Assembly (NCBI GenBank): GCA_018821785.1
Contig: JAHJLI010000198.1
Span: 1 to 50,015, forward strand
DNA: 50,015 nucleotides
Origin: Pseudomonadota bacterium
Lineage (GTDB): Bacteria; Desulfobacterota; Desulfobulbia; Desulfobulbales; Desulfocapsaceae
Direction: 5' to 3'
Shown here: piece after piece, positions 14,147-22,595 of the stretch
Layout: each line of letters begins with the position of its first letter
Position numbering within the stretch: position 1 is the first letter of the stretch
Position numbers and translations under genes: made by a program
The notes under the pieces: model-generated
Told to the model about the DNA's origin: nothing
Database searches by the model: none
Seen by the model: only the letters and a program-made list of their open reading frames with translations

Positions 14147-15778
14147 ATGATGTTGGGCCAAGATGAGCAGATTAAAAAAATCTGGATGCTTAGTCGGGAG
14201 TATGGGCAGCTCGCAGGTGCGGGGGGGGTCAAGGATGTCGTCTGTCAACTGGCCGAAGCGCTTGCCCGAAGATCAGCTAGGTCGCTTCATGTGGTGCTGC
14301 CACTTTATGGTTTTGTCAATGCCCGGGAACAGGGATTCAAGCCTTTATTAGACCCATTTTGTCCGGACCGTATCCTTCGATTGCAGATTGATATGCACCT
14401 GCCGGACAAACGAATACTCGAAGAGGTTTATTATTTTTATAAAAAAATCAACGAGGTAAATCTCTATCTCGTTGACGCCGATCGTTATCGACAAAAATCA
14501 GATGTTTACACCTATAGTGAAAAGGATGAGAATCTCGTTCCCTGGCAGAAAAAATCCATGGGGCATCACGACTTTTTCGCAATGAACCTGCTGCTGCAGA
14601 AGGCAGCTCTTGAGCTTATGATTGTTCTTGGGGAAAAGCCCGATGTCATTCACTGTCATGATGGCCATACGGCGGTTTTGCCGGCGCTTATTCGTGAGAA
14701 TGCAGGGTATCGCAATTATTTTCGGGAAACGGGTTGTGTCGTTACCATCCATAATGCGGGATATGGCTATCATCAGGAAGTGATTGATATTCCATATGCC
14801 GCTTCAATTACAGCACTGCCAAAGCATGTAATCGACGCCAATATGCTCGATCTGAAATTTGATCCTTTTCTTGTGGCCGGCCATTATGCGATACTGAACA
14901 CAGTCAGTGAAAATTATGCGAGAGAGTTGCGGGAGACCGACAGTGATAGCCTGACGGGATGGCTGGGCCATGAACTGCTCAGGCGCAATGTCATCCTAGA
15001 AGGAGTGACCAACGGTATTGATCCTGAGTTTTTTTGTTCCGAAGCAATAGCCGGGGACAATCCACAACTGCTCTTTTATCCGGGAAAGGAGGATGATAAT
15101 CTGGCCGGGAAAAAGCGCTGTAAGGAAATGCTTCTGAGTCTTCTCCAACATGGGACCATGTATGATGGGGTAAGGTGTTTTGGTAGGCTCGAAAAGAATG
15201 TCCATCATCCCCTGTTAACTTTTATTGGGCGCCTGAGTGAGCAAAAAGGTATCGATATTTTCATGACGGTACTTGACGAACTGCTGCAGCGTCATTCTGA
15301 GGTTCAGGTGCTGATCTTTGGCACCGGGACGAGCGAGATTAATTCCAGTCTAATCAGCCTGACAGAGCGGGAAGAGTTTTATGGCCGTGTGTGTTTTTTG
15401 CAGGGATTCAGCACAGAAATGGCTAATAAGGTGTATGCAGCCGGAGATTTTTTCGTCATACCATCTCGATATGAACCATGTGGCTTAACTGATTTTATTG
15501 CCCAGTTATTTGGCAATATCCCAATAGTACATCATGTTGGTGGCTTGGTGAAGGTGGTCGATGGAGTCACCGGGATTGCCTATGAGGGAAATTCTCGGCA
15601 CGACTTGCTGAAAGCCCTGGAAAGAGCTCTGGTGTTGTATCGGAATGAAAAATTAATTCGGAAAATGCAGCTGCAGGCGGTTAAGGTAATTGAACAGAAT
15701 TACACATGGTCAAAAGTCATGCATAAATACCTTGAGCTTTACTCTAAAGCCAGAAAACTGCAATTATGCCCGGAGTAA
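14147..15778 (+). CDS. glgA: Glycogen/starch synthase-like glycosyltransferase (GT5), divergent
   Basis: A 543-residue GT-B glycosyltransferase. GT5 members transfer glucose from ADP- or UDP-glucose to the growing alpha-1,4-glucan. The C-terminal donor-binding region is typical (TFIGRLSEQKGIDIF, and SRYEPCGLTDFIAQLFG with the conserved Glu), as is HCHDGHTAVLPAL in the first domain. The N-terminal loop, usually K-T-G-G-L-G/A-D-V, reads GAGGVKDV here (residues 24-31), so the sugar-nucleotide-contacting lysine is missing at that position. AGGAAAGAGAG precedes the ATG. Its neighbours gap and the dikinase-like gene suggest a carbon-storage or glycolytic context. Donor specificity is uncertain. Confidence 0.85.
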   Translation: MMLGQDEQIKKIWMLSREYGQLAGAGGVKDVVCQLAEALARRSARSLHVVLPLYGFVNAREQGFKPLLDPFCPDRILRLQIDMHLPDKRILEEVYYFYKKINEVNLYLVDADRYRQKSDVYTYSEKDENLVPWQKKSMGHHDFFAMNLLLQKAALELMIVLGEKPDVIHCHDGHTAVLPALIRENAGYRNYFRETGCVVTIHNAGYGYHQEVIDIPYAASITALPKHVIDANMLDLKFDPFLVAGHYAILNTVSENYARELRETDSDSLTGWLGHELLRRNVILEGVTNGIDPEFFCSEAIAGDNPQLLFYPGKEDDNLAGKKRCKEMLLSLLQHGTMYDGVRCFGRLEKNVHHPLLTFIGRLSEQKGIDIFMTVLDELLQRHSEVQVLIFGTGTSEINSSLISLTEREEFYGRVCFLQGFSTEMANKVYAAGDFFVIPSRYEPCGLTDFIAQLFGNIPIVHHVGGLVKVVDGVTGIAYEGNSRHDLLKALERALVLYRNEKLIRKMQLQAVKVIEQNYTWSKVMHKYLELYSKARKLQLCPE

Positions 15779-15833: not shown

Positions 15834-15966
15834 ATTTACAGATTTCAAGTTATTGTTGGAAGAGGGATGAAAGTGTCGTCGGTTATGTGGCTTCAATGCA
15901 TCATTGCTGAAATAAGGCCGATTATCATGACTGACTTTGAATCCGGAAAATTTACAGGAGAGGAAT

Positions 15967-16971
15967 ATGACGGTAAAAATTGGTATTAATGGTTTCGGTC
16001 GAATTGGCAGGAATATCTTCAGAGCTATCGACAAAGATGCAACTTTTGCCGATGTGCAGGTGGTGGCTATAAATGATTTGACCGATAATGCGACTCTTGC
16101 TCATCTTTTGAAATATGATTCGGTTATGGGTGTATATGATAAAGATGTGCAAAGCAACGATAACGGTATTGTTGTTGATGGACGACTGGTTACCGTGTCA
16201 AACCACCGCAATCCATCGGAAATCCCTTGGGGAGCATTAGGTGTCGAGTATGTGGCCGAGTGTACAGGCAAATTCGTCGATGCGGAATCAGCCCAGGCAC
16301 ATATTGATGCCGGCGCAGCCAAGGTGGTCATTTCCGCTCCTGCCAAGGGCAATGTGAAAACCTTTGTCATGGGAGTAAATGAAGATGAATACGATCCCAT
16401 GGTTCATCATGTTGTGTCCAACGCATCGTGCACTACCAACTGTCTTGCGCCCTTTGCCAAAGTTATTCTCGATAAGTTCGGGATCAAACGCGGCCTGATG
16501 ACTACCGTGCATGCCTATACCGGCGATCAGAGGTTGCTTGATTTTCCCCATTCCGACCCCCGTCGAGCTCGTGCAGCCGCATTATCAATGATTCCAACGA
16601 AGACCGGCGCGGCTGCGGCAGTATCTCTTGTTATTCCTGAATTAAAAGGCAAATTTGATGGTCTGGCGGTGCGGGTGCCTACACCGACGGTATCTCTGGT
16701 CGATGCTGTCATGGAAGTGGAGAGGGAGACAACAGTTGAGGAAGTCAATCAGGCCTTGAAGGAGGCAGCGAACAGATATCTTGGGTATACCGAATTGCCA
16801 CTCGTTTCCATCGACTTCCAGGGCAATGCCCACTCTTCAATCATTGATGCCCAGTGTACCAAGGTGATTGGCACCTCCGTCAAGGTCATGAGTTGGTATG
16901 ACAATGAATGGGGGTATTCCAATAGAATGCTGGATCTTATTCTCCATATGGAGGCGAATAAAGCGATTTGA
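15967..16971 (+). CDS. gap: Glyceraldehyde-3-phosphate dehydrogenase, type I
   Basis: A 334-residue NAD-dependent GAPDH. It starts MTVKIGINGFGRIGRN (Rossmann fold), has INDLTDN for NAD binding, the catalytic Cys in NASCTTNCLAP, and ends with SWYDNEWGYSNRM. It converts glyceraldehyde 3-phosphate, NAD+ and Pi to 1,3-bisphosphoglycerate. The ATG at 15967 is chosen because ACAGGAGAGG lies just upstream; the frame is open ten codons earlier without support. pgk and tpi are not adjacent. Confidence 0.97.
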   Translation: MTVKIGINGFGRIGRNIFRAIDKDATFADVQVVAINDLTDNATLAHLLKYDSVMGVYDKDVQSNDNGIVVDGRLVTVSNHRNPSEIPWGALGVEYVAECTGKFVDAESAQAHIDAGAAKVVISAPAKGNVKTFVMGVNEDEYDPMVHHVVSNASCTTNCLAPFAKVILDKFGIKRGLMTTVHAYTGDQRLLDFPHSDPRRARAAALSMIPTKTGAAAAVSLVIPELKGKFDGLAVRVPTPTVSLVDAVMEVERETTVEEVNQALKEAANRYLGYTELPLVSIDFQGNAHSSIIDAQCTKVIGTSVKVMSWYDNEWGYSNRMLDLILHMEANKAI

Positions 16972-16998: not shown

Positions 16999-17037
16999 AA
17001 GCGCCTTTGAAGATTTGTCTTTAAAGGCGCTTTTTTA
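16999..17037 (+). terminator. Rho-independent terminator after gap
   Basis: The stem AAGCGCCTTT / AAAGGCGCTT (16999-17008 and 17023-17032) with a 14-base loop is followed by TTTTTAT. It separates gap from the next gene, which must have its own promoter in 17040-17231. Confidence 0.9.
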
Positions 17038-17231: not shown

Positions 17232-20200
17232 ATGAAAGAAACAGCCAACGATTTAGTGATTGAATCGGATGCCCTAAAAGCAAATCTGATCGAAACTGCC
17301 GGAAGTGTAATAATAAACAAAGATCTGCAGGTGCTGCTGGTTGTGGTAGAACAGTTCAGCGGATTGCACACAACCCTTGAAAAGCTGCTTTTTGAAGTTT
17401 GCCACCCATTTCGAAATTGGAAGATGATCTTGCCGCAACTACGCAGTTTTGCGCTGAAAAACATCAACCATTACCGAACGCACACACTTGGACCACAAGC
17501 ATTTGGTCTTTTTGCGAAGCTTTTTTTTGAGGCTATGCAGGACACTACCCGCGATGTCACACTCCTTTCCCAGGTTGTCGGGGCGCAGATGGTCTGGCTT
17601 GATAAAATGGTCAGCCAGTTCACCAACGACGATCTGCATCGCTACGGGGCGGAACTGAATACCATTTTTGAGCGATTCGCCGAGTTTGAACGAAGCGACA
17701 AAAGGATAATGATGCAGATAGTCCAGGGTCAGCATCCATTTGCAAAAATAGCTAAGCAACTCCTCGTAATCGCTGATAAAGGCAGGGTTGATTTTGACTT
17801 CTTTCCCTTGGCCCGACTGGTCCGGGCCATTCTTGAGAGATGCTACCATTACTGGCTCAAGGAAGATGATCCGCTGACCTGGTTCCTTGACCGCTGCAGT
17901 ATTCCGGTGGCTGACTTTCACTCATCCAACCTTTTTCAGGCAATTTCGCACGTGACGATGGAACAACATCTGGCAGCGGTTATGGCATTTGATCTGAAAA
18001 AAGAGCCTTTATTCGCCCTGCAGGCTATGCTCGAGTATCCGGAACACATTGATATCGTCAAGTACTATAGGGCAATGCCGAACAATCTGGTGGCCGCGGA
18101 AACGGTCTTTCGAGAGATTGCACAACAGGGGATGAGTCATCTCCACCATTTTAGTGAAAATAGAAAGCTGCTATTTTTATTTAAGATCATGGATACAGAT
18201 GGGCTGTACCTCATCCATGAAGAGACCCTGCGGGAAATTAATCGCAGCCTCGTGCAGCTGATTAGACAACAGAGTTTTGAAGAGATTGAGGAATTTCTCT
18301 TGACCGCTTTTAAGCTGCTGAAAGCCAATGTGCGGAAATTTCCGCACACCTCAATGCAGTGTATCCAGGTGCTCGGCGGGGAGGTGTTTGACCGCGGCAA
18401 TAGCCGCATGGTTGAAGCTTTCCTCTGGGGTGTGGTACGCTTTGGTTTCCAACACGCAAGCGTTGTCGGTGTCGACGAAAACTGGCAACCCCTCGCCAAT
18501 CCCGCGCATCTGGCCAATATTCGGGTCTGGCTCTATCTGATAATGCGGGAACCAAAGTGGTGTTCGACGCTGTTTTCGGCCCTTATCATTCATCTTAAAC
18601 TTTCCGGCACCTGTGTTAAGGATACCGATCTGTTTCAACGGGACATCACCCAGCTTCTCAATCATCCGATTGAACCTATTTACAACCTGTCGAAACAGTT
18701 CACCAAACTCATGCCGGTCTTTTTCAATGAAATTGGTTCGGAAGGAGAATTGCGGGATGTATCGACCGAACTTGACGAAATCCACAAGCGCAAGGATGTG
18801 CTGATTCATTTCCTCCGTAAACAGGGACATGTTGAGAGTTCCAATCTCATTGTCGATTTTGTTCAGGCAATTTTCCTTTTTTGGAAGACCGGCGATAAGA
18901 CCCTGCTGATTCCCTATATCCCGGAAGAGGTCTACAGTCAGGTTGCAATAAGCGGCGAGTATGTCGATGATCTTATGGTTCTCAGTGTCAGGTTCTGGCC
19001 GGCCATGGGCATCAACAGGGTGCGGGATATTTTAGGGAAGGACAATGAGTCTATCAGCACCTTCCTTGCCGGCCAGACCGACCTGCAGCCCCAGGAGGTT
19101 CGTCGATTTGAGCTGATGGTGAGGATGTATAAGCTGCTTCACAAAAAATATAAATTAGGTTTTCAACAGCTGCGGTCGGAGATTCTCAAGGCAGTCAATG
19201 ACGGCTTTCCCGAGATGGAGCGGTTGCTCGCAGATATCGACCATGCCGATACCGAGAAGTGTTTAGAAGCTCTTTTGACGGCTCTTGAAAGCCTGAAAAA
19301 AATAATACTTTCCAAGGAGACTTTCGAGGCCCAGGAGGATATCTATTATAAGCGGCATATCGCCGCAGACATCCCGTCGGTGTATGGAAGATACAAAGAG
19401 CGGAAATTCGATGCCCTCAGTCTTACCTTCCGCTTGGAAAATCTTGCCAACCTGTATCTGGAAAAGCTGCCGGAAACGGTAAACCTGTCTATTATCACCC
19501 AGGCCACCTTCTATAATATAGTAAGGTGCATAAAGCTCTTTCTCCGGGCTCTGGCGATTGACGGCATAACTTCACGTCGGCTTTCCACCTATCTCTCGCT
19601 GCTGGAAACATCGCTGAAGGTTCGTCGCTTTTCTTATACTCAGTATCTCGATATTTTCAGGGGTATGTCGGAAGGGGTCAAAGATATCATCTATGCTTTT
19701 TATACCAATATCCATCAGAATAATTTGTCGATAATCATTCCCCAGATGGGCAGGGAAAATCTTCTTGAGAAGTTCGCAAATTTCTTCGATGAATCGGAGG
19801 TGGGAACGACAGTACAAAGGTTGTCCGAGGTGTTTTTCAGGGAACTGATATCTTCTACCTTCGGCCTGCAGCATCTTGATAATTTCATTCTCCGAATCCT
19901 CCAGACCCTTGAAAACCAGAAGGATCTGCTTGACCAGGAGAGGCTTGACCTGCTTATGACCTATAACCCCGAGGGGGTACTGTCATTGTTGCATAAGCCG
20001 AATCCCTACACCAATAACCTTATCCACCTTGGAAATAAAGGATTCAATCTCGCCACACTCATTGGTGACGGAAAACCGGTGCCTCCGGCCTTTGTGCTCA
20101 CAACGGAAATTTTCCGCTGTCGGGAGATTGTCTTTGGCTATGCCAAGACGAGGGATGAGTTTATGGAACGCGTTCGTCAGGCTCTGACCGAGATCGAGCA

Positions 20201-21509
20201 GATTGCGGGAAAAATGTTTGGGTCACCTGAAAGGCCGCTGCTTTTATCGGTACGTAGCGGGGGGGCTATTTCCATGCCGGGAATGATGGCCACTATCCAT
20301 AATGTTGGTTTGAATGAAGACCTTATCGCCGAGCTCATTGCCAACCACGGCAACGAGTACCTGGCCTGGGACAATTACCGACGTTTTTTACAATCCTGGG
20401 CGATGATATCCGGGGTCGGCAGAGAGGATTTTCAGGTTCTCATGAATAAGGCCAAGGCCAAATATAATGTGAGCTTAAAGAGGGACTTTTCACCGGAACA
20501 GATGCAGGAACTGGCACTTTCCTATCAGCGACTCATCCGCGAGCGGGGTCTAGTAATACCTGATGACCCCTGGCTCCAATTGGTCAATGCCATTCAGCTG
20601 GTGTTGGATTCCTGGGAAACCCAGAAGGCGGTAGAGTATCGAAAGATTATGGACGTTTCGGATTCATGGGGAACGGCAGTCATTGTCCAGGCCATGGTGT
20701 TCGGCAACAAGAGCGGGGCTGCTGGCTCAGGGGTGGTTTTTACTGCACATCCGTATCGCAAGGTACAGCGAGTCGCCTTGTGGGGTGATTATGCCTATGG
20801 CGATCAAGGCGAGGACATAGTTTCCGGATTGGTGTCGAGCCATGCCATTTCAGTTGAACAGGCAAAGCTTGATGGTCGGCACGAGAGTGAAACCCTTGAG
20901 TCGCGTTTCCCCAATATTTACCAGAAGCTCCTGCATATTTCCCGCGAGCTTGTTTACGAAAAACGATGGAACCCGCAGGAAATCGAGTTTACTTTCGAGG
21001 GTCCTGAACCTGATGAACTCTATCTCCTGCAGACCAGGGATATGATAACAATCAAGAAGAAGGAACACCTGAACGTTTTTGTTGAGAGTCCGGCCCTCGA
21101 GTCCGCCTATCTTGGCAAGGGGGTGGGAGTCTCCGGCTCGGCACTTTCAGGTCGGGCCGTCTTCACTGAAGAAAATATCCGTAAACTGCGACAGACTGAC
21201 CCGGCGACACCCCTCGTCCTCATTCGTCAGGATACAGTTCCTGAAGACATCAAAGTGGTGAGCCAATCTGATGGGCTACTTACCTCCAGGGGTGGACAAA
21301 CCTCACACGCCTCAGTTGTTGCTGTGCGTCTGGAAAAGACCTGCGTTGTCGGCTGTCGGAGTTTGAAGGTGTATGAGGCAGAGCAGTATTGCGAAATTGC
21401 CGGGGTCAAAATTGGTTTTGGCGATCCCATCTCAATCGATGGTCGCAATGGGCAGGTACTGAATGGGGTGCACCCCATAATTGAAGAGTATCATATATTG
21501 CCGATATAA
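17232..21509 (+). CDS. Large dikinase-like protein: PPDK ATP-grasp and phosphohistidine domains, no PEP/pyruvate barrel
   Basis: A 1425-residue protein. Residues 1 to about 925 are predicted mostly helical and match nothing I recognise; no signal peptide or clear membrane segment is seen. From about residue 933 (HLGNKGFNLATL, PVPPAFVLTTE) the PPDK-type nucleotide-binding domain begins, with SVRSGGAISMPGMM near 1007 and ELYLLQTRD near 1260. The swivelling domain follows, with catalytic His1359 in TSRGGQTSHASVV and then VVGCRSL. The protein ends about 65 residues later, where normal PPDK has a barrel of some 360 residues for PEP/pyruvate. It could therefore make phosphohistidine from ATP but lacks the usual acceptor site. 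It sits downstream of glgA and gap. No strong ribosome site precedes the ATG. Confidence 0.85.
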   Translation: MKETANDLVIESDALKANLIETAGSVIINKDLQVLLVVVEQFSGLHTTLEKLLFEVCHPFRNWKMILPQLRSFALKNINHYRTHTLGPQAFGLFAKLFFEAMQDTTRDVTLLSQVVGAQMVWLDKMVSQFTNDDLHRYGAELNTIFERFAEFERSDKRIMMQIVQGQHPFAKIAKQLLVIADKGRVDFDFFPLARLVRAILERCYHYWLKEDDPLTWFLDRCSIPVADFHSSNLFQAISHVTMEQHLAAVMAFDLKKEPLFALQAMLEYPEHIDIVKYYRAMPNNLVAAETVFREIAQQGMSHLHHFSENRKLLFLFKIMDTDGLYLIHEETLREINRSLVQLIRQQSFEEIEEFLLTAFKLLKANVRKFPHTSMQCIQVLGGEVFDRGNSRMVEAFLWGVVRFGFQHASVVGVDENWQPLANPAHLANIRVWLYLIMREPKWCSTLFSALIIHLKLSGTCVKDTDLFQRDITQLLNHPIEPIYNLSKQFTKLMPVFFNEIGSEGELRDVSTELDEIHKRKDVLIHFLRKQGHVESSNLIVDFVQAIFLFWKTGDKTLLIPYIPEEVYSQVAISGEYVDDLMVLSVRFWPAMGINRVRDILGKDNESISTFLAGQTDLQPQEVRRFELMVRMYKLLHKKYKLGFQQLRSEILKAVNDGFPEMERLLADIDHADTEKCLEALLTALESLKKIILSKETFEAQEDIYYKRHIAADIPSVYGRYKERKFDALSLTFRLENLANLYLEKLPETVNLSIITQATFYNIVRCIKLFLRALAIDGITSRRLSTYLSLLETSLKVRRFSYTQYLDIFRGMSEGVKDIIYAFYTNIHQNNLSIIIPQMGRENLLEKFANFFDESEVGTTVQRLSEVFFRELISSTFGLQHLDNFILRILQTLENQKDLLDQERLDLLMTYNPEGVLSLLHKPNPYTNNLIHLGNKGFNLATLIGDGKPVPPAFVLTTEIFRCREIVFGYAKTRDEFMERVRQALTEIEQIAGKMFGSPERPLLLSVRSGGAISMPGMMATIHNVGLNEDLIAELIANHGNEYLAWDNYRRFLQSWAMISGVGREDFQVLMNKAKAKYNVSLKRDFSPEQMQELALSYQRLIRERGLVIPDDPWLQLVNAIQLVLDSWETQKAVEYRKIMDVSDSWGTAVIVQAMVFGNKSGAAGSGVVFTAHPYRKVQRVALWGDYAYGDQGEDIVSGLVSSHAISVEQAKLDGRHESETLESRFPNIYQKLLHISRELVYEKRWNPQEIEFTFEGPEPDELYLLQTRDMITIKKKEHLNVFVESPALESAYLGKGVGVSGSALSGRAVFTEENIRKLRQTDPATPLVLIRQDTVPEDIKVVSQSDGLLTSRGGQTSHASVVAVRLEKTCVVGCRSLKVYEAEQYCEIAGVKIGFGDPISIDGRNGQVLNGVHPIIEEYHILPI

Positions 21510-21609: not shown

Positions 21610-21681
21610 CCCCCTCACAAGGGAGGATAAGTACCTTCGCGGAATGCATTGTTAAAAACAAAAAACGAATTCCTGATGTAC
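21610..21681 (+). repeat. Intergenic palindromic repeat, copy R5
   Basis: Between the dikinase-like gene and the small Cys-rich gene. CCCCCTCACAAGGGAGG (hairpin) is followed by TAAGTACCTTCGCGGAATGC, a loop of A and C, and the partly matching arm ACGAATTCCTGATGTAC. The order and spacing are those of R2 and R6; the second arm has drifted. Confidence 0.7.
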
Positions 21682-21743: not shown

Positions 21744-21971
21744 ATGTCTCAGAAGAAAAAATACAGAAAAGGCCCGAAACTTTTTTCATTGGCCAGAAAA
21801 AAGGCGCTTATGCTCGGGGTTCCCCAAGAAAAGGGGGTGAAACTTGCTGAACTTATCTGTCGGATTCAAGAGCAAGAAGGCAATCCTTCATGCTTTCAGC
21901 AGCGGGAAAGCTGTTCGCAAACTGCTTGCTGCTGGCAGGCGTCTTGTCGTGTCTTGATGACAGAGGAATGA
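21744..21971 (+). CDS. Small SAP-like, Cys-rich protein
   Basis: A 75-residue basic protein. The first part (LARKKALMLGVPQEKGVKLA) resembles a SAP or Rho-N-like helix-turn-helix motif, and the second is cysteine-rich (CFQQ, SCSQTACCWQASC). Small proteins with a SAP-like segment followed by GN-x-x-CF and clustered cysteines are common in Desulfobacterota and Geobacter-like bacteria, function unknown. The cysteines suggest a zinc or iron-sulfur site. The ATG at 21744 follows GGGGAGGGGGG closely; the longer frame upstream runs through repeat R5 and is unlikely to be translated. Confidence 0.6.
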   Translation: MSQKKKYRKGPKLFSLARKKALMLGVPQEKGVKLAELICRIQEQEGNPSCFQQRESCSQTACCWQASCRVLMTEE

Positions 21972-22237: not shown

Positions 22238-22308
22238 CCACCCCCCATAAGGTGGGTAAGTACCTTCGAAATTCATTCTAAAAAACAAGAAATGAATTTC
22301 GAAGGTAC
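22238..22308 (+). repeat. Intergenic palindromic repeat, copy R6 (best-preserved)
   Basis: CCACCCCCCATAAGGTGGG hairpin (22238-22256), then a perfect 18-base inverted repeat GTACCTTCGAAATTCATT (22260-22277) / AATGAATTTCGAAGGTAC (22291-22308) around a 13-base A-rich loop. The last base pairs overlap the TAG stop of the minus-strand arsR gene. It lies between arsR and the DUF2892 gene and would form a strong hairpin in a joint transcript. Confidence 0.85.
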
Positions 22309-22595
22309 TAAAAATTCGGACAAAAAAGAAAATGCATTTTCTGAATAAGTTCGAGAATGCGTTTGTCAGTGATTTTATTATAGATAAAATTTGCATCTTT
22401 ACGGTAATCGATTATCCCTTGACCACGCAAAATATTCAAATGCTGTGAAACATTTGCATTGGTGGTCTTTACCTGTTCTCTGAGTTCGCCGACCGAAAGC
22501 TCCTTGTCCTGTAAAAGACAGAGAATTTTTAGACGAATAGGGTGGGACATTGATTTGAGCATTTTAGCCATTGCATCAATTTGCTCGTCTTGCAT
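22308..22595 (-). CDS. ArsR-family regulator, BigR/SqrR/YgaV-like persulfide sensor type
   Basis: A 95-residue winged-helix repressor: SHPIRLKILCLL, then the recognition helix region TTNANVSQHLNILRGQGII. It has exactly two cysteines, C26 (helix 2) and C92 (C-terminal helix, in FLFCP). They are 66 residues apart, the same separation as C42/C108 of BigR and C41/C107 of SqrR, which sense persulfides by forming a sulfur bridge. No CxC metal site of ArsR/SmtB type is seen. The downstream DUF2892 gene fits this call. AAGGGGG precedes the ATG. Its stop codon lies at the edge of repeat R6. Confidence 0.8.
   Translation of the reverse strand: MQDEQIDAMAKMLKSMSHPIRLKILCLLQDKELSVGELREQVKTTNANVSQHLNILRGQGIIDYRKDANFIYNKITDKRILELIQKMHFLFCPNF

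Follow-up and report, generated by a model that had tools for sequence, protein, structure and literature searches.

We analyzed a 50,015-nt stretch of DNA (hereafter the window; contig JAHJLI010000198.1, positions 1 to 50,015, assembly GCA_018821785.1) from a member of the Desulfobulbales in the phylum Desulfobacterota, which carries a gene for a 1425-residue dikinase-like protein that we call DIK. A first-pass annotation of the window had described its C-terminal part as resembling pyruvate phosphate dikinase (PPDK) and as stopping where the phosphoenolpyruvate (PEP)/pyruvate barrel should begin, and profile and structure searches bear this description out. Pfam places PPDK_N at residues 975-1279 (1.4e-28) and the mobile domain at 1328-1407 (8.4e-15), with nothing else above its cut-offs, and no match to the barrel family PF02896 is found in the entire protein; of the three profiles that had been proposed as a check, the PF01326 and PF00391 types are thus present and PF02896 is absent. 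The closest solved structures among PDB sequences are PPDKs, aligning with residues 930-1412, and the ATP-grasp is of the PPDK type rather than the PEP-synthase type (PDB E values of 3e-74 vs 7e-12). NCBIfam agrees in ranking TIGR01828 (PPDK) at 358 bits, itself below a cut-off of 843, over PEP_synth at 71 bits. When set against full-length PPDKs from related genomes, DIK stops just past the His domain, and fewer residues link its LQTRD motif to that domain than in those proteins.

The active site of this shortened dikinase appears intact. Across 148 aligned DIK homologues, including some that stop short at a contig edge, no change is seen at K936, R1008, R1050, or R1051; E1252, Q1267, and R1269 are likewise constant but for one gap; and E1250 shows one gap and one Q. 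The predicted phosphohistidine, His1359, sits in the motif GGQTSHA and is H in all 146 homologues that have a letter at that position, with T1357-S1358-H1359-A1360 unchanged throughout. We matched these residues to the ATP site and phosphohistidine loop of PPDK through alignments together with the residue numbering of PPDK. Since the PPDK ATP-site and phosphohistidine residues are kept, DIK likely carries out the half-reaction in which the His is phosphorylated by ATP (with inorganic phosphate, Pi). Judged from its sequence, DIK is an intact PPDK-type ATP/His machinery without the pyruvate site and with a conserved new region instead, and pyruvate-PEP interconversion by a protein lacking the barrel is unlikely.

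The N-terminal region, residues 1-925, had been called large, helical, and unknown by the first-pass annotation. Its size and novelty hold up, while its helical character is only weakly supported by a Gly+Pro content of 6.1-8.3% compared to 12.4% in the C-terminal part. Pfam searches with the N-termini of 54 family members gave scattered matches only, the best at 4.7e-4 in 2 of the 54, and a profile built from the same 54 retrieved no PDB sequence at E ≤ 10. The best NCBIfam stretches on DIK all begin at residue 929 or later, leaving none in the N-terminus, and a plasmid search with the region returned no match at E 0.01. A barrel hidden in this part was not found either, with a best hhalign probability of 2.5% against 98.9% and 100% for the positive controls, and hhalign detected no internal repeats. 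The region is conserved all the same: conservation in the entire protein peaks at block 421-540 and in block 660-840 is about equal to that of the catalytic part, and both blocks contain many charged and aromatic residues that are invariant across the phylum. The region is the natural place for a putative acceptor or partner site, and in our judgement its invariant charged residues have the look of a catalytic site rather than of a docking surface.

A missing barrel, and nothing more, would also be expected of a broken or mis-assembled PPDK gene, an explanation that the ends of the homologues refute. Exact peptide patterns retrieved 212 relatives from species genomes, and the best 80 of them make up our Desulfobulbales sample. 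They are labelled Desulfobulbaceae, Desulfocapsaceae, Desulfobacterales, or delta-proteobacteria or carry a genus or species name, with a few labelled merely Proteobacteria, Pseudomonadota, or bacterium; a cable bacterium, Candidatus Electrothrix (L067), is among the DIK relatives, as are the cultured Desulfobulbus rhabdoformis, Desulfoprunum benzoelyticum, and Desulfogranum japonicum. In this sample, 77 of 80 proteins share the C-terminus, matching to residue 1424-1425 and continuing for no more than one residue, and the other 3 run off their contigs, so a frameshift near position 21509 does not account for the end. Across the phylum, a profile of the N-terminus alone is positive in 84 of 297 genomes, 80 of which hold a DIK open frame of 1368-1590 aa (the exceptions are G009, G121, G143, and G073), and 67 further homologues match the whole-length model to position 1404-1416 of 1416, with frames ending within about 30 residues. 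Since these ends are conserved both in close relatives and phylum-wide, the barrel-less end is the normal state of the family. In a tree of 16 DIK C-terminal parts, 13 PPDKs, and one barrel-less protein from Methylocella, the DIK parts group in a clade apart (support 0.996), next to one that unites the PPDKs with the Methylocella protein (0.997). Two irregular copies were seen: in the single-contig genome G073 (L150), DIK lies in two overlapping frames where tested congeners have one, reflecting either a sequencing error or recent decay, and at L054:7980-8273 a partial copy of DIK residues 10-88 stands just upstream of a full-length DIK gene.

DIK is accompanied across the phylum by a second gene, encoding a divergent glyceraldehyde-3-phosphate dehydrogenase (GAPDH) of about 400-440 aa with insertions, which we call the long GAPDH. 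Its profile (E ≤ 1e-80) is positive in 85 of the 297 genomes, compared to 84 for DIK, and 83 genomes have both. The discordant genomes are G121, with DIK only (76% complete), and G013 and G086, with the long GAPDH only (79% and 62% complete). When the comparison is restricted to the 245 good genomes (completeness of 90% or more, contamination of 5% or less), 73 have DIK, 73 have the long GAPDH, and none is discordant. The separation is also sharp in score: in an 80-genome set, all 42 DIK-positive genomes score 663-787 bits with the long-GAPDH profile, whereas 37 of the 38 DIK-negative ones score at most 187 bits, from canonical GAPDHs, and the remaining one has no match. All 8 named relatives that were searched, Desulfoprunum benzoelyticum and Desulfogranum japonicum among them, have the long GAPDH, in one case in two pieces and in another with a flagged internal stop, and in the single-contig, DIK-positive genome G036 the long form is the only GAPDH match at E ≤ 1e-20. 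A Fisher test of the co-occurrence gives p of about 2e-70 with relatives counted as independent, and for this reason the families holding both states (f5, f13, f14, f36, and f52) are more telling; there the two genes agree except in the incomplete G121 (f13). Together, these findings demonstrate that DIK and the long GAPDH form a near-obligate two-gene association among glycolytic genes. Among the open papers listed in our searches, none dealt with the DIK family or the long GAPDH. Genome G109 carries two equal-scoring long-GAPDH copies and a doubled pgk as well, and G074 has one whole copy plus two fragments, perhaps one gene cut by contig ends.

The long GAPDH resembles type I GAPDH in keeping the catalytic residues and in matching the type I model (TIGR01534) over its length, and it differs in its insertions and in its score, the three proteins tested reaching 337, 331, and 295 bits against a cut-off of 367. 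In all 14 aligned long GAPDHs the catalytic Cys (in SCTTT) and His are kept, as are the Arg and Thr of the phosphate site, and G-R stands where the canonical GAPDH of the window has N-D; the roles of these residues, including that of the G-R/N-D position, are assigned by analogy with other GAPDHs. Because G-R replaces N-D, the long GAPDH looks NADP-type.

The surroundings of DIK point to the same part of metabolism. At 39 distant loci, from other orders of the phylum and picked to spread over families, a long GAPDH gene lies at most 308 bp downstream of the DIK gene in 36 (29 on the same strand and 7 convergent). It is followed in 13-14 of the 39 by pgk and tpiA, often with a secG-like gene, all named from their sequences. 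In the Desulfobulbales, canonical gap takes the neighbouring position, lying less than 700 bp upstream on the same strand at 36 of 62 loci (those of the 80 with at least 1300 bp of upstream sequence), and farther off at 11, with none seen at 15. In the Desulfobulbales genomes viewed, the long GAPDH has another location, in most cases together with pgk, tpiA, and secG. The first-pass annotation had proposed a glycolytic or a glucan acceptor from the genes near DIK, and its glycolytic link is strengthened by these neighbours and by the co-occurrence described above, while its glucan hint fares poorly. A glucan or glycogen dikinase would explain the divergent glgA two genes upstream of DIK and the presence of glgA at 37 of 80 Desulfobulbales loci. 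However, clustering of proteins (BLASTP 1e-12, which could miss very divergent copies) finds glgA at only 1 of 39 distant loci, where the stable partner is instead a GAPDH, and Pfam finds no carbohydrate-binding match in the N-termini of the 54 members. Since glgA is found at 37 of 80 loci in one lineage and 1 of 39 outside it, its adjacency looks lineage-local, and we consider a glucan acceptor very unlikely. A link to the PEP-dependent phosphotransferase system (PTS) was also rejected: genes resembling ptsN and EIIA, identified by eye from their sequences, adjoin DIK at some distant loci, and none was seen at the f31 or Desulfobulbales loci viewed.

The features of the window are collected in the table below. 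Relatives of the small Cys-rich protein encoded downstream of DIK, which share a conserved CCWQ-SC tail, lie directly downstream of DIK in at least 13 of the 80 Desulfobulbales loci. The inverted repeat that follows it, together with a diverged copy of its flank, could represent a small element, either mobile or regulatory.

Table. Features of the DIK locus (positions in the window)
Feature	Position	Strand	Basis or remark
DIK, barrel-less PPDK-like dikinase	17232..21509	+	open frame, 1425 aa, stop TAA
DIK N-terminal region, residues 1-925	17232..20006	+	conservation profile; no convincing database match
DIK PPDK-type ATP-grasp part	20019..21068	+	PDB match from residue 930; PPDK_N 975-1279
DIK PEP-utilizers mobile (phosphohistidine swivel) domain, residues 1328-1407	21213..21452	+	Pfam
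Codon of predicted phosphohistidine His1359	21306..21308	+	GGQTSHA motif, alignment
Canonical GAPDH gene gap, upstream neighbour	15937..16971	+	internal ATG at 15967 is the probable homologous start
Intrinsic-terminator-like hairpin with T tail, between gap and the DIK gene	16999..17032	+	fold z -5.6
Divergent glgA-like gene, two genes upstream of DIK	14147..15778	+	TIGR02095, 260 bits (cut-off 328)
Small Cys-rich protein, downstream of DIK	21744..21971	+	75 aa, no Pfam match
Perfect 19-nt inverted repeat	22259..22309		13-nt loop
Diverged 18-nt copy of the inverted-repeat flank	21622..21639		629 bp upstream

The missing barrel could in principle be supplied by another protein, making DIK one half of a split PPDK or PEP synthase. 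PF02896 is indeed present somewhere in 43 of 44 further DIK-positive genomes tested, and all 8 named relatives that were searched have it too, but the matches listed for the former set fall in open frames of 589-1058 aa rather than in stand-alone barrels. Moreover, the genome from which the window comes (G000, 94% complete, with 14 of 14 controls detected) yielded no PF02896 protein, be it PEP synthase, PPDK, or PTS enzyme I, and the single-contig, DIK-positive genome G022 has no PF02896 match. Since both of these genomes have DIK and give no barrel match, its provision in trans is unlikely, and the split-enzyme explanation has even less to recommend it than the glucan one. Replacement of PEP synthase or PPDK by DIK was rejected as well, as PF02896 occurs in those 43 of 44 positive genomes and in 11 of 11 negative ones. 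Pyruvate kinase shows no link to DIK, being present in 32 of 42 DIK-positive and 32 of 38 DIK-negative genomes. A link to sulfate reduction through AMP and pyrophosphate (PPi) is no rule: aprA (E ≤ 1e-100) is enriched with DIK, occurring in 60 of 84 positive genomes vs 60 of 213 negative ones, of which 3 fall under the curated cut-off.

G000 also encodes other PPDK_N proteins. Two of 876-877 aa are adjacent on C294 (L081 and L082), and PEP-synthase model matches to the L081 protein extend no further than residue 590, so that about 290 residues have no explanation. Two more lie on C186 and C46 (L083 and L084), one of them 992 aa long with a long unexplained N-terminal part and the other cut by a contig edge; no catalytic-His loop was recognised in them by eye.

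We give roughly even odds (a probability of about 0.5) to DIK being a His phosphotransferase that forms a functional unit with the long GAPDH at the glyceraldehyde 3-phosphate/1,3-bisphosphoglycerate/3-phosphoglycerate node. In this proposal, a PPDK-derived protein would have exchanged its PEP/pyruvate barrel for the new N-terminal region of about 925 residues. With ATP, and probably Pi, the ATP-grasp would load a phosphate onto His1359 and give off AMP (and PPi); the C-terminal swivel domain would then bring the phosphate back to a site in the N-terminal region. There it would meet a phosphorylated triose-level metabolite passed to, or from, the long GAPDH. We prefer a small-molecule acceptor because the N-terminus bears an active-site-like set of invariant residues, and among such molecules 3-phosphoglycerate because GAPDHs consume its acyl phosphate. 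Addition of phosphate to 3-phosphoglycerate would yield 1,3-bisphosphoglycerate and feed the long GAPDH by a route parallel to phosphoglycerate kinase (PGK), driven by the conversion of ATP to AMP and reversible with AMP and PPi. Naming 3-phosphoglycerate as the acceptor is tentative, and on present evidence a rather unlikely guess to be exactly right. More doubtful again is the complete new metabolic step, in which 3-phosphoglycerate phosphorylated from ATP (to AMP) through a phosphohistidine would be handed to an NADPH-type GAPDH.

Several observations weigh against a functional unit of DIK and the long GAPDH. The two genes are near each other in 0 of 80 Desulfobulbales loci, and in G000 the long GAPDH lies on another contig (C308:35621-36847). 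A terminator-like hairpin parts gap from the DIK gene in the same genome, and because of this hairpin the two are possibly separate transcription units, so that a shared transcript is not assured. The co-occurrence counts related genomes many times, and the mixed state of f5 rests on a negative genome, G049, that is 85% complete. A canonical GAPDH is also present in 41 of 42 DIK-positive genomes of the 80-genome set. Distances between DIK proteins correlate with those between long GAPDHs (r of 0.79 over 35 loci and 0.88 over 19) hardly better than with those between canonical GAPDHs (0.86 over the same 19), and the mirror-tree comparison does not discriminate. Lastly, PGK is kept in 79 of 80 DIK-positive genomes tested (of 84), the exception being a genome of 950 contigs; replacement of PGK by DIK was rejected on this count, and because of it we place the DIK route parallel to PGK. 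In three DIK-positive genomes (G041, G192, and G239) the sole PGK found is a divergent protein in a 439-485-aa frame, scoring 254-267 bits compared to about 460-547 in most.

If the functional unit is real, lower glycolysis/gluconeogenesis in the Desulfobulbales, cable bacteria, and others contains an enzyme or switch that has gone unrecognised, in a protein that would be labelled pyruvate phosphate dikinase by model name. If the 3-phosphoglycerate route is also true, these anaerobes would have a bypass that runs beside PGK and is pulled or, given AMP and PPi, yields ATP, and the 925-residue N-terminus would be a new acceptor fold. Because the pairing is near-strict, the partner can be named, and the question is answerable with two purified proteins.

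DIK shares with PPDK the type of its ATP-grasp, the GG.TSHA loop, and the order of ATP-grasp then His domain, and is set apart by the lost barrel, the added N-terminus, the shorter LQTRD-His linker, its TIGR01828 score far below cut-off, and its separate clade. Glucan, water dikinase is likewise barrel-less with a large N-terminal part, but there the His domain precedes a C-terminal ATP domain, which is the opposite of the order in DIK. The barrel-less PPDK-like protein of a Methylocella tundrae plasmid (L208) has 526 aa, is without the N-terminal region of DIK, and groups beside PPDK outside the DIK clade. Its gene overlaps by 8 bp that of a 631-aa protein with a C-terminal DUF47/PhoU-like match, making the two (L208:2081-5549) another candidate kinase-partner pair; this neighbour shows no homology to the DIK N-terminus, and a Rosetta-stone relation was therefore dropped.

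Another barrel-less parallel is the mycobacterial VadK (Rv1127c). PMC13400623 describes it as a PPDK-derived, barrel-less protein of about 50 kDa, consisting of the ATP-grasp and His domain alone, that autophosphorylates its His and co-immunoprecipitated methylcitrate-cycle enzymes encoded close to vadK. By analogy, DIK could be a regulatory kinase whose autophosphorylation at His1359 controls the long GAPDH (or canonical GAPDH and PGK) by binding or phosphorylation. In that case no metabolite would accept the phosphate, and the N-terminal region would serve for sensing and docking. Like VadK, DIK is a barrel-less ATP-grasp and His domain whose candidate partner is encoded nearby, here in a gene that also co-occurs with it, and with PGK kept, no metabolic step is obviously missing. 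On the other hand, DIK has 925 residues beyond the two domains, a region that VadK lacks (VadK is compared here by its published description), and the many phylum-wide invariant charged residues in this large region look catalytic in our judgement. A regulatory role is possible, if on balance less likely, and is a close rival to a triose-level acceptor such as 3-phosphoglycerate.

The functional unit that we favour with the long GAPDH would be compatible with the chemistry of the small-molecule dikinases, which, according to PMC4844700 and PMC12167813, pass a phosphate from ATP through a His to non-pyruvate acceptors such as rifampin and phenolic compounds; DIK would share with them the path from ATP to His to acceptor by way of a swivel domain. 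These enzymes are called a large and little explored group in the same sources, and DIK might simply be one more, with an acceptor unrelated to GAPDH, as in rifampin phosphotransferase, phenylphosphate synthase, or HpeHI. We find this doubtful, and less likely than a regulatory role, since DIK co-occurs near-strictly with the long GAPDH and adjoins either it or gap, and since the acceptor domains described there are not N-terminal, being placed either between the ATP-grasp and the His domain or on the subunit that bears the His. The ATP-grasp-to-His segment of DIK is shorter than that of PPDK and so holds no substrate domain, unlike rifampin phosphotransferase, and two residues ahead of the His the small-molecule dikinases of these sources have Met and DIK has Thr. 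It is already known that phosphohistidine dikinases gain new acceptors by acceptor-domain swap; DIK would represent such a swap beside core glycolytic genes, in a pair with the long GAPDH that is kept or lost together across a phylum.

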